A stretch of DNA of 64,000 nucleotides, taken from Synechococcus sp. CC9605. GTDB lineage: Bacteria; Cyanobacteriota; Cyanobacteriia; PCC-6307; Cyanobiaceae. The stretch is from the NCBI RefSeq assembly GCF_000012625.1, contig NC_007516.1:1674001-1738000 (forward strand), read 5' to 3'. Below, one piece after another: positions 3 through 44,921 of this stretch (its first letter is position 1; each line of letters starts with the position of its first letter). The notes beneath the pieces were generated by a model. That model saw only the letters and a program-made list of their open reading frames with translations. It did not search any database and was not told the origin of the DNA. The position numbers and the translations under genes are program-made.

Positions 3-314
3 TGCCACCCCGTTGGAGGCCAGGGGCTCAATCTCTGCTGGCGTGATGTGGAAGGCTTGCTGCGCGCCGTGGAGCAGGGCGGCAGCGCCGCAGCAATCGC
101 TCGGCGTTACGGGATGAGCCGCTGGCTCGATGTGCTCCAGGTGGGCGTGGCGACGGATCTCCTGGTGCGGGTGTTCTCCAACCGCCAACCGCTGTTGCTT
201 CCCCTACGGCGCCTGGCTCTGCTGCTGCTGAAGCGGTTCTCTGGGTTGCGCCAACTGAGCTTGCGGGCCATGAGTGACGGCCCCATGCAGCTCTGGCGGG
301 CCTTGCCAAACTGA
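3..314 (+). CDS. C-terminal part of a UbiH/COQ6-type FAD monooxygenase (5' end outside window)
   Basis: Only the last 103 codons are present; the frame is open from the window edge. The segment HPVGGQGLNLCWRDVEGL matches the third FAD-contacting signature of UbiH/VisC/COQ6 flavoprotein hydroxylases (consensus HP-GQG-N---D). These enzymes hydroxylate aromatic or quinone rings with NAD(P)H and O2. The substrate in cyanobacteria is uncertain, so only the family is named. After the motif comes a helical, basic tail typical of the family end. The gene stops 20 bp before a small DUF2949 gene on the same strand. Confidence 0.8.
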   Translation, partial: CHPVGGQGLNLCWRDVEGLLRAVEQGGSAAAIARRYGMSRWLDVLQVGVATDLLVRVFSNRQPLLLPLRRLALLLLKRFSGLRQLSLRAMSDGPMQLWRALPN

Positions 315-41992: not shown

Positions 41993-43040
41993 GTGGCCCT
42001 GGCGCTCGCCTGCTTCGGCAGCGCACTACCCCTGCAGGCCAATGAGCTCAGGGTGGGCATCAGCGGCTCCGCCCCGTTCGTGATTCAGGACGGCGACTCC
42101 ACCAGCGGCATCAGCCTCGACATATGGCGGCGCGTCGCCGAAGACAACAACTACAGCTACGAACTGATTCCGCAGCCATCCCCCAAGGCCGGGATTGAAG
42201 CGGTGGATGAAGGTGAGATCGACGTGCTGGTGGGGCCAATCAGCATCACCTCCGGTCGATTGGCCATGCCGGCGTTGATTTCACCCAGCCCTACTACCTG
42301 GGCAAGTCGGGGGTGTTGCTGCCGATGCGCCTGCCGTCGATCATTAGCCGCGTCCAGGTGTTCTTCGGCTGGGCAGTGATCTCCTCGGTGCTGGTGCTGA
42401 TTAGCGTTCTGCTGCTGGTGGGCAGCCTGATCTGGCTGGCGGAACGGAACCGCAACAGTGAGCAGTTTCCGCGGGACTGGCTACCGGGCATCAGCAGCGG
42501 CATGTGGTTTGCCCTGGTGACCTTGACCACGGTGGGCTACGGCGACAAGGCCCCGATCACACGAACCGGCCGAAGCATCACCGGCGCCTGGATGGTGATC
42601 TCTCTGATCGAGGTGTCGTCCCTCACCGCCAGCCTCGCCTCGGCGTTCACCCTGTTCCTCTCCGATGCCACCGAATCGGCCATCAGCGCTCCTGAACAAC
42701 TCAACGGCCGTCGGGTTGCAGTGGTGAAGGGCACCAGTGGCATGGAGCTGGCCCAACGCGGTGACATGCGGATCGTCAGCGCCACCAACCTCAGGAGTGC
42801 CGTTCAACTGTTGTTGGAGCAGCAGGCCGATGCCTTGATCTTCGATCGACCCGCCATTCGCTACCACCTCAAAAACAACCCCGACCTCGCCTACGCCTCG
42901 CCCCCTTCACCCTGTCGGAGGAGACCTACGGCTTCGTAATCAAACCGGACAGCCCCCTGCGCACGCCCATGGACGTCTCCATCCTCAAATTGCAACGGCA
43001 GGGGAAGGTTGCAACCATTGCCAACCGGCTGCTGGATTGA
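41993..43040 (+). pseudogene. GluR0-like ligand-gated K+ channel with two frameshifts
   Basis: Three consecutive reading frames form one protein. Frame 1 (to about 42270): signal peptide VALALACFGSALPLQA and the first ligand lobe (LRVGISGSAPFVIQD, DEGEIDVLVGPISITSGRLA). Frame 2 (to about 42900): VDFTQPYYLGKSG, a membrane helix, pore loop TLTTVGYGDKAP (K+ filter TVGYGD), second membrane helix, then the second ligand lobe (RVAVVKGTSGMEL). Frame 3: FTLSEETYGFVIKPDSPL to the stop at 43040. Adding one base near 42270 and one near 42900 restores the whole. The layout of substrate-binding lobes split by a pore is that of the Synechocystis GluR0 class. Confidence 0.85.
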
Positions 43041-43058: not shown

Positions 43059-43295
43059 TCAGCCCAGAGGGCGATGGCGACGCAGGGCCTCTTCCAGCAG
43101 ATAGGCAGCCAGATTGCCGCAACTGCGCCCTTCAGCGAGGGCATGACGCTTGAGGTCATGCATCACCCCGCGGGGCAGGGTGACGTTGATGCGCTCGGAG
43201 CCGGCGGCGTCCGCCACCGCAGCCGTGCTGGGAGCCGCGCCCTGGCCCTCGATCCGCTGCTGCAACTCCTGAACCAGATCCTGAAGGAGAGACAC
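43059..43295 (-). CDS. ribbon-helix-helix (CopG/Arc-type) regulator
   Basis: 78 residues from GTG 43295. The C-terminal RHH fold is clear: ERINVTLPRGVMHDLKRHA then GRSCGNLAAYLLEEALRRH. The N-terminal helix (LLQDLVQELQQRIEGQG) is probably for oligomerisation. It could be an antitoxin-type or autoregulatory repressor; no toxin gene adjoins it. The start codon lies inside the first of three palindromes in the divergent promoter region, consistent with autorepression. Confidence 0.8.
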   Translation of the reverse strand: MSLLQDLVQELQQRIEGQGAAPSTAAVADAAGSERINVTLPRGVMHDLKRHALAEGRSCGNLAAYLLEEALRRHRPLG

Positions 43296-43361
43296 GATTT
43301 CGTGAAAATATGCTCACAATTCGTTAACGATATCGTGCTAGACAAGATTGCGTAATCTTGG
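43293..43361. promoter_or_regulatory. cluster of palindromes, putative RHH operator, shared divergent promoter
   Basis: Repeated half-sites TCGT/ACGA with 2-bp centres: ACGATTTCGT (within CACGATTTCGTG, 43293-43304), TCGTTAACGA (43322-43331) and ACGATATCGT (43328-43337), the last two overlapping. A fourth inverted repeat CAAGATT-GCGT-AATCTTG occupies 43344-43361. All lie between the RHH gene and the PPC-glutaredoxin gene. Confidence 0.75.
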
Positions 43362-43380: not shown

Positions 43381-43989
43381 ATGCAACCCCTGCCGCTGAA
43401 GCTTGCTCCCGGCAGTGATCTGCGCCTCAGCCTCGAAGAACTGGCCGAGCGGGATGGCATCAGCGGCTTTGTTCTCGGCGTGGTCGGCAACCTGACCAAG
43501 GCGTCCTTTCAATGCCCCGGCCAGGCGGAGCCCACTGTGCTGGAGGGAGACCTTGAGGTAATCACCCTCAATGGAACCTTTTCCCCCGAGGGCGTTCACC
43601 TGCACCTGAGCCTCTCGGACGGGGCCTGTCAGGTGTGGGGAGGCCATCTGGAGCCTGGCACGATCGTGCAGAAGGGCGTCGACCTCCTGATTGGCGTGCT
43701 GGAGCAACGCGAAGGCCACCCCACGCGTCAGACCGCAGCAGCAGCGCCAAGGATCGAGATCGCCGTGCTGCCGGGATGCCCCTGGTGCAGCCGCGCCCTG
43801 CGCATCCTGAGAACCCTGGATCTGCCCCACACCGTCACCACCGTCAACGACGACGCAGCCTTCCAGGCCGTGCAGCAGCGCAGTGGAATGACCACCTTCC
43901 CCCAGGTGTTCATCGACGGATCGGTGATTGGTGGCTACGACGATCTCGCCGCCATGCAAGCCGCCGGTGAACTCGACGCCCTCCGCTGA
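43381..43989 (+). CDS. PPC (DUF296) domain fused to glutaredoxin
   Basis: 202 residues. Residues about 1-110 form a PPC/DUF296 domain (PLKLAPGSDLRLSLEELAER, GVHLHLSLSD, then GGHLEPGTIV), known from plant AT-hook proteins and stand-alone in bacteria, usually with zinc-binding His residues (here HLHLSLS and GGHL). Residues about 120-202 form a glutaredoxin: VLPGCPWCSRALRILRTL (CPWC), TTFPQVFIDGSVIGGYDDL. Domain order implies redox coupling of an unknown PPC function. GAGG precedes the ATG. It is the first gene of a likely operon with the two after it. Confidence 0.88.
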   Translation: MQPLPLKLAPGSDLRLSLEELAERDGISGFVLGVVGNLTKASFQCPGQAEPTVLEGDLEVITLNGTFSPEGVHLHLSLSDGACQVWGGHLEPGTIVQKGVDLLIGVLEQREGHPTRQTAAAAPRIEIAVLPGCPWCSRALRILRTLDLPHTVTTVNDDAAFQAVQQRSGMTTFPQVFIDGSVIGGYDDLAAMQAAGELDALR

Positions 43990-44236
43990 TCAGCCGGAGC
44001 TGAAGCCTCAGGAACAGCCACTCTCGGAACAGCCACCGTTCTGGTCGCTGAAACCCTGGTGGTGCCAGCCCTGGTCGATCGTCTCCACGGGAGTGCTGTT
44101 CGTCGGCGGGTCCTGGGCAGTGCTGCATTGCCTCTGGATCAGCCTTCCGCTGGCCCTGGGTGTGCTGGCCTGGTGGCTGCTGTTTCTGGTGCTCGTCCCC
44201 GCCGCCTACCGCTCGGCAGCGGAGGCGAACCAATGA
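43967..44236 (+). CDS. small membrane protein (possibly DUF6737)
   Basis: About 89 residues from GTG 43967, which overlaps the preceding gene by 23 bp. No later start codon exists in this frame before the conserved part SLKPWWCQPWSIVSTGVLF. Two membrane helices follow (VLFVGGSWAVLHCLWI and LALGVLAWWLLFLVLVPAAY). The KPWWCQPWS motif is shared with a cyanobacterial/plastid family that I think is DUF6737. Function unknown. Confidence 0.65.
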   Translation: MNSTPSADQPELKPQEQPLSEQPPFWSLKPWWCQPWSIVSTGVLFVGGSWAVLHCLWISLPLALGVLAWWLLFLVLVPAAYRSAAEANQ

Positions 44237-44730
44237 CGCCCTCACCCTTTCGCCGCATCGACCAACAGCTGTTCGCCCAGGTTGCCGCCGAGGCCCGGCA
44301 GCATCCCCGCCTGCGCCTAAACCACAATTTCCACCGGGAACAGGATGCGGTTCAGCGCTTCCTCAACGTGCTGCAGCCCGGCACCTATGTGCGTCCCCAC
44401 CGCCACCGGCGCAACGGTTCCGGCACAGGCTTCGAATGTTTCCTGGTGCTGCAAGGCGCCATCGGACTGTTGCTGTTCAACGGTGAGGGGGAAATCCAGC
44501 AGCAGCTCCATCTCAGCGCCAAGGGGCCCACCCACGGCATCGAGATTGCAGAAGATCAGTTCCACACCCTGGTGGCCCTGGAGGCCAACAGCGTGATTTT
44601 CGAGCTGAAACAGGGGCCCTATCAGCCCTCTCAAGACAAGGACTTTCTCAACGGCTTCCCCCAGGAGGGCACAACGGAGGCTGCCAGGCAAGAGTCGCAG
44701 TGGCGCGACCTTCTTTCAGATCAGGTCTGA
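44233..44730 (+). CDS. WbuC-family cupin protein
   Basis: 165 residues from ATG 44233, overlapping the gene before by 4 bp. Cupin metal motif in VLQPGTYVRPHRHRRNGS with further His in QFHTLVALEAN. Resembles WbuC, found near polysaccharide gene clusters; activity unknown. Third gene in the operon headed by the PPC-glutaredoxin fusion. Confidence 0.8.
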   Translation: MTPSPFRRIDQQLFAQVAAEARQHPRLRLNHNFHREQDAVQRFLNVLQPGTYVRPHRHRRNGSGTGFECFLVLQGAIGLLLFNGEGEIQQQLHLSAKGPTHGIEIAEDQFHTLVALEANSVIFELKQGPYQPSQDKDFLNGFPQEGTTEAARQESQWRDLLSDQV

Positions 44731-44921
44731 CGCGAGGCTTCACGGGAGCGCTGCTTCTCATCCAGCAGTTCCCCTTCCAGCTGCTCGATCAAACGACTCA
44801 CCAACGCCTGAAATTCCGGCTGGCAGCCACGAAACGCCGCTTTATGACGGATCGGCTCGTTGCGCATGCGCAGATCCGTGAGCATCAGCTGCAGCGAATC
44901 GATCCGGGCGTTGGAAGACAT
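44721..44921 (-). CDS. small hypothetical protein
   Basis: 66 residues, highly charged and helical (FQALVSRLIEQLEGELLDEK). Convergent with the cupin gene, overlapping by 10 bp. No family recognised. Confidence 0.5.
   Translation of the reverse strand: MSSNARIDSLQLMLTDLRMRNEPIRHKAAFRGCQPEFQALVSRLIEQLEGELLDEKQRSREASRQT

Follow-up and report, generated by a model that had tools for sequence, protein, structure and literature searches.

A PPC-glutaredoxin fusion common in Cyanobiaceae carries two fusion-only cysteines that point to a thiol-based function

The stretch of Synechococcus sp. CC9605 DNA analysed here (the window, 64,000 nucleotides of a 2.51 Mb genome that consists of a single contig) holds a gene joining a PPC domain (PCC/DUF296) to a glutaredoxin (Grx) domain, and raises the question of whether this gene belongs to a larger system and what the joined domains might do. 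From the sequence, the first-pass annotation had described a PPC-CPWC glutaredoxin fusion followed by overlapping genes for a small membrane protein and a WbuC-like cupin behind a promoter controlled by a ribbon-helix-helix (RHH) protein, and had taken the four linked parts for an undescribed redox or metal-responsive system. The fusion was confirmed by its open reading frame and by Pfam profiles, PCC (PF03479) matching residues 3-108 (E 2e-20, 73.7 bits against a cut-off of 25) and Glutaredoxin (PF00462) residues 125-183 (E 3.1e-14, 53.4 bits against a cut-off of 22.9). The protein gave no Pfam matches other than PCC and profiles of the Grx, GST_N and thioredoxin type, and PF03479 was matched at E <= 0.001 by 25/25 members of the fusion alignment. 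The overlapping DUF6737 and WbuC cupin genes downstream and the divergent RHH gene were likewise borne out by open reading frames and profile matches (Table 1).

Table 1. Positions of the features discussed, in window coordinates (residue numbers for the domains of the fusion protein).
Feature	Coordinates	Strand	Details
PPC(PCC/DUF296)-glutaredoxin fusion gene	43381..43989	+	202 aa; ORF and Pfam
Domains of the fusion	residues 1-110; ~111-119; 122-202		PPC; low-confidence linker; Grx
C45 codon, PPC half	43513..43515	+	invariant and fusion-specific, 132/132 fusion rows
H73-x-H75 codons	43597..43605	+	presumed metal site; invariant in fusion rows and in the kept standalone PPCs
C83 codon, PPC half	43627..43629	+	invariant and fusion-specific, 132/132 fusion rows
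H89 codon	43645-43647	+	third His of presumed metal site; invariant in 132/132 fusion rows
Grx active-site codons, C133-P-W-C136	43777..43788	+	C133 invariant; Ser frequent at C136 in relatives
DUF6737 small protein gene	43967..44236	+	GTG start; PF20522, E 2.3e-19, 69.7 bits vs cut-off 27
WbuC-family cupin gene	44233..44730	+	TIGR04366 cupin_WbuC, E 4.1e-46, 156.1 bits vs cut-off 42
RHH_5 ribbon-helix-helix gene, divergent	43059..43295	-	PF07878, E 6.4e-17
Inverted repeat CACGATTTCGTGAA / TTAACGATATCGTG	43293..43337	.	arms of 14 nt with 86% complementarity; putative RHH operator

The start of the DUF6737 gene overlaps the end of the fusion gene by 23 nt and the cupin ATG sits in an ATGA overlap with the DUF6737 gene, both starts having been chosen by eye in place of the first mechanical starts of the open reading frame list. 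The DUF6737 protein contains the motif KPWWCQPWS and is a putative membrane protein, as hydrophobic stretches recognised by eye suggest. The intergenic stretch between the RHH and fusion genes (43293-43360) also holds a perfect 7-nt inverted repeat, CAAGATT / AATCTTG, besides the longer repeat, which may serve as the RHH operator. CACGAT/ATCGTG-like boxes were seen by eye upstream of the fusion in close relatives.

The occurrence of the fusion was assessed in a class-wide sample of 291 genomes, in 300 genomes of the family Cyanobiaceae and in a named scan of 336 relatives, 80 of which were kept. In the class-wide sample it was present in 36/36 Cyanobiaceae, counting one genome (G062) in which it lies in two pieces within one 245-aa frame; no row over both domains was obtained at E 1e-13 from any of the 255 genomes outside the family, 80 of which gave a PPC match without Grx. 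Some match at E 0.001 was found in 299 of the 300 family genomes, the best E being below 1e-30 in 239 and not in 61 (hand count). A value below 1e-30 is by itself no proof of a fusion, since the PPC piece of G062 reaches 5.5e-46 on its own; among the family-genome matches listed (E down to 2e-61), all span both domains. When 37 of the 61 genomes without a strong match were rechecked with profiles, none gave a row spanning both domains, two of them (G224 and G168) being cut by contig ends at the fusion. The fusion gene is chromosomal, common but not universal in Cyanobiaceae, and specific to that family within the class sample. Restriction to a single strain, which the first-pass annotation had considered, can be set aside because the fusion is conserved far beyond CC9605. 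Aligned members range down to 41% identity with the window protein, and the gene is kept in genomes of 1.6-1.7 Mb. Most of the 80 kept named relatives are titled Synechococcus, Prochlorococcus, Cyanobium or uncultured cyanobacterium. Two loci (L085 and L093) titled Phycisphaerae bacterium and Bifidobacterium breve hold ordinary picocyanobacterial fusion genes, and as both fall among the cyanobacterial fusions in the tree, these titles are probably binning errors. The phage collection gave 46 records with a match, in none of which one place covered 80% of the query, and none of the 38 pattern-matching stretches in viral contigs encoded a relative.

Gene order was compared at 51 genome loci and 80 named loci, two sets that overlap. 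DUF6737 lay directly next to the fusion at 33 and 39 of these, respectively, a divergent RHH gene was present at 32 and 26, both at 28 and 20, and all four parts at 13 and 5. The 13 include L003, where the cupin is split over two frames, and L010, where a remnant (residues 98-159) is left, so that the cupin is decaying in part of the genus. It is absent from 10 of the 23 readable genus loci and absent or broken in 12, L025 having been left out of the tally because its contig ends, and is a sporadic neighbour outside any conserved unit. DUF6737 was found in 131/194 class genomes. All 21 Cyanobiaceae of that sample have the fusion and 14 have DUF6737, beside the fusion in seven and elsewhere in the other seven; it is absent from all seven g17 genomes (1.6-1.7 Mb), which retain the fusion. 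The distant position of DUF6737 in half of the genomes that have both, together with its absence from g17, indicates that the fusion is independent of these neighbours. No fixed functional neighbour was found, the clusters of flanking open reading frames of L033-L132, many of which are shadow frames, differing by lineage and indicating no single pathway; at Prochlorococcus loci the neighbours, read by eye from translations, resemble CDP-alcohol phosphatidyltransferase, NAD-epimerase, GNAT, endonuclease III and HisA. In 30 short loci from other cyanobacteria no recurrent real neighbour of DUF6737 was recognised, and a search for literature on DUF6737 found none. The RHH, DUF6737 and cupin genes are therefore best described as lineage-limited neighbours and not as required parts of a system. 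Where present, DUF6737 and the cupin are probably co-transcribed and RHH is probably regulatory; the RHH protein is a possible regulator in part of Cyanobiaceae. The four linked parts of the first-pass annotation thus did not survive the comparison: lack of joint conservation, which it had named as a ground for doubt, applies to the cupin and, beyond part of Cyanobiaceae, to RHH and DUF6737 as well.

The fusion alignment comprised 132 rows, of which 117 are distinct because L001 and L002 represent a single gene and some of the named loci duplicate genome loci. Residues D13, G36, C45, E59, H73, H75, D80, C83, V85, G88, H89 and E91 are invariant over all 132 rows. For comparison, 31 of 32 standalone cyanobacterial PPCs were used, paralogues inside Cyanobiaceae included, L172 having been dropped because it is a partial fusion truncated where its contig stops. 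The three histidines H73, H75 and H89 are common to the fusions and all 31 standalone proteins, and the proposal that the fusion unites a thiol domain with a His-rich, probable metal-site domain is supported. C45 and C83, by contrast with the standalone set, occur in 117/117 distinct fusions and 0/31 standalone PPCs, and are the sole PPC columns at the 100%/0% level, with one residue in all fusions and in no standalone PPC. Standalone proteins have Leu, Phe, Tyr or Trp at position 45 in 30/31 cases and Pro in one, and Gly at position 83 in 31/31. At a looser 90%/10% level 13 PPC columns are diagnostic, i.e. 11 beyond C45 and C83; E91 is found in 100% of fusions against 3% of standalone proteins, and L103 in 100% against 7%. 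A PPC tree was calculated from 39 fused and 31 standalone domains after removal of the C45 and C83 columns, and has few columns and several long branches. A single branch (SH-aLRT 100, quick method) separates the fused PPCs from the standalone ones, and on it C45 and C83 each need one change. The cysteines and the fusion fall on the same branch, a clean association, and since both cysteines became fixed on that one branch, their link to Grx rests on one evolutionary event. These fusion-only cysteines point to a thiol-based function of the PPC half.

Among the standalone proteins, 14 rows have a Cys at the E91 position, directly after GGHL. A separate Grx-less PPC paralogue (MKVVPLRL-type) also occurs in Cyanobiaceae (L163-L170, L199, L201 and L202). 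In L183 and L185, from the non-Cyanobiaceae family f4, the PPC domain lies inside a 648-aa open frame, possibly another PPC fusion.

The C-terminal half is a class-I-type Grx, with CPWC in the window protein and C133, P134, cis-P174, G184 and G185 invariant in 132/132 rows. The active site reads CPWC in 50 rows, CPWS in 54, CPFS in 20 and CPYS in 8, so that the C136 position is Ser in 82/132 rows (75/117 distinct); judged by its sequences, the orthologous group is mixed dithiol/monothiol, and the second cysteine of a class I Grx is not a group-wide character. The Ser state at C136 needs at least six changes on the tree drawn, two of them forced by starred branches, many branches of this tree being long. 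Some glutaredoxins work by a one-cysteine mechanism that depends on glutathione. Fixation of C133, P134, P174, G184 and G185 with frequent Ser at C136 is what would be expected if a one-cysteine mechanism suffices, and retention of the glutathione-site residues beside Ser fits glutathione-dependent chemistry of this kind. By sequence, profile and structure the Grx half is closest to Grx3/GrxA types. The GRX_bact and Grx3 models score best, NCBIfam GRX_bact giving 60.7 bits, which is under its equivalog cut-off of 90. The CGFS motif was found in 0/132 rows, and TIGR00365 (Grx4 type) gave 36.2 bits against a cut-off of 117.1. Two stronger Grx matches lie elsewhere in the same genome, and the Grx of the fusion therefore need not serve the whole cell.

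A single-chain model was obtained with AF2 from 25 orthologues (mean pLDDT 92.2, pTM 0.54), the linker at residues 111-119 falling under pLDDT 50. In this model the PPC half has the PPC fold, aligning with 2p6y (Z 19.7, rmsd 1.5, 109 aligned residues) and with the metal-containing protein AF0104, 2h6l (Z 13.9, rmsd 2.0, 106 aligned), and the Grx half aligns with 1fov (Z 14.4, rmsd 1.3, 80 aligned). The strand order of the model puts C45 and C83 at the ends of two separate hairpins, possibly far from each other in a single chain, so that their contact may need another subunit. Archaeal PPC crystals contain trimers.

Each half of the fusion has known relatives. The PPC half shares its fold with the standalone PPC/PCC proteins 2p6y, 2hx0, 2nmu, AF0104 (2h6l) and PH0802 (2dt4), and cyanobacterial single-domain PPCs have the same three-His site, but lack C45 and C83 and give no row over both domains. 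The C-terminal half resembles GrxA (ssr2061) of Synechocystis (3qmx) and E. coli Grx3 (1fov) in fold and sequence; these are standalone dithiol proteins, whereas the Grx of the fusion is tethered and its second Cys is replaced by Ser in 82 of the rows. In plant AHL proteins an AT-hook, with the core RGRP, stands beside the PPC domain, whereas no AT-hook was seen by eye in the 202 residues of the fusion. The hybrid Prx5-Grx of Haemophilus influenzae (1nm3) likewise has an N-terminal domain followed by a class-I Grx, to which the Grx half corresponds, and in that protein the Grx serves the thiol of its fused partner. Its N-terminal domain is a peroxiredoxin, however, whereas that of the window fusion is PCC, a fold from which peroxidase activity would not be expected.

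The architecture itself is not wholly undescribed, as a DUF296-GRX protein with the same two domains is listed as bacteria-specific in a 2009 survey, where it is assigned a CPYC-class Grx and a DNA-binding role is suggested (Alves et al., 2009, PMC2679010). Unlike the present analysis, the account of DUF296-GRX given there does not say which organisms carry the protein and mentions neither cysteines of the PPC domain nor a loss of the second Grx Cys, and the words Prochlorococcus and Synechococcus are absent from the main text of the survey (PMC2679010). Among titles and opening lines of abstracts, no literature on a PPC-Grx fusion in cyanobacteria was found beyond this survey, and none on a biochemical function of a bacterial PPC/DUF296 protein in the CC0, CC BY and CC BY-SA literature of PMC. 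As far as the literature was searched, the following are new: the confinement to a single family in the class sample, the single branch of origin, the pair of cysteines seen in fusions only, and the mixture of CPxC and CPxS active sites.

We favour, with a probability of about one half, a redox-sensing or thiol-dependent PPC protein in which a metal-site PPC domain carries C45 and C83, reset in cis by the tethered Grx. The PPC half would be a metal-site protein with a predicted three-His site at H73, H75 and H89, oxidation, glutathionylation or metal binding would take place at C45 and/or C83, and the tethered Grx would reset these cysteines in cis with glutathione, C133 alone being required. 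The fusion might thus work in the manner of the Grx in hybrid Prx5-Grx. A fused Grx and two cysteines confined to the fused form strongly hint at thiol chemistry at C45 and C83. For the history of the protein we suggest, tentatively and at slightly under even odds, that in an ancestor of Cyanobiaceae (Synechococcus, Prochlorococcus, Cyanobium) a metal-site PPC domain gained, on one branch, two cysteines and a tethered Grx and so became a glutathione-reset thiol or metal switch. If this is correct, most of these picocyanobacteria, including those with reduced genomes, would keep a new kind of switch, and it would offer a concrete starting point for working out the biochemistry of bacterial PPC domains. 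The carriers are among the sea's most abundant phototrophs, and survival of the gene in genomes of ~1.6-1.7 Mb suggests that its function may be relevant to oxidative or metal stress in open-ocean waters.

The conserved His site and the invariant added cysteines would also be compatible with metal or Fe-S handling, in which Zn, Fe or a cluster is bound by C45 and C83, alone or together with the His site, and a [2Fe-2S] cluster carried by the CPx(S/C) Grx and glutathione is passed to, or sensed by, the PPC half; the protein would then be a metal carrier or sensor and not a disulfide switch. The fold match to the metal-containing AF0104 and the frequent Ser at the second Grx position speak for this, some monothiol-type glutaredoxins being known to bind clusters. 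However, the Grx is not of the CGFS type, the best-scoring models being GRX_bact and Grx3, and no ISC, SUF or BolA gene was recognised by eye among the translations of the conserved neighbours; we regard this alternative as doubtful, albeit one to be taken seriously. Neutral joining of two housekeeping domains, with the cysteines as chance lineage markers, would account for the single branch and for the further PPC columns that changed on it, but is hard to reconcile with fixation of both cysteines in every distinct fusion despite identities down to 41% and with persistence of the fusion in genomes of 1.6-1.7 Mb, and is considered very unlikely.

A redox-controlled nucleoid or DNA-binding regulator, in which the Grx tunes a PPC half that, like plant AHL proteins, binds to DNA or to a transcription factor, would agree with the DNA binding and regulation proposed for DUF296-GRX (PMC2679010) and with the PDB titles that call relatives putative DNA-binding proteins. 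That name is an annotation in bacterial PPCs, however, and neither an AT-hook (202 aa, by eye) nor any further DNA-binding domain (Pfam) was found, which leaves this explanation unlikely. A dedicated metal or redox-responsive system made of RHH, the fusion, DUF6737 and the cupin draws on the overlapping genes and divergent RHH gene of CC9605 and on the loci where RHH and DUF6737 both accompany the fusion (28/51 and 20/80). Against it stand the few loci with all four parts (13/51, two of them with a broken cupin, and 5/80), the missing or broken cupin in the genus (missing in 10/23, broken in L003 and L010), and the distant or absent DUF6737 (7/14 Cyanobiaceae with both, 7/7 g17). It is largely refuted by gene order, was rejected on that ground and on the distribution of DUF6737, and has the least probability of all, a very small one. 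The thiol-dependent PPC protein with a Grx acting in cis remains the preferred reading.

Two further genes near the fusion were noted. A 66-aa protein is encoded downstream on the opposite strand (44721-44921) and has no Pfam or NCBIfam match; such a gene has this placement at 39/80 named and 36/51 genome loci, and in small genomes of the Prochlorococcus type, e.g. L046-L048, it is 15-17 nt away from the fusion frame. Upstream, a gene resembling those of ligand-gated ion channels (41993-43040, forward strand) has Ion_trans_2 and Lig_chan matches for 42313-42936 and is split over frames, with open reading frames at 41993-42379 and 42313-42939 and the rest extending to ~43040, as if frame-shifted.
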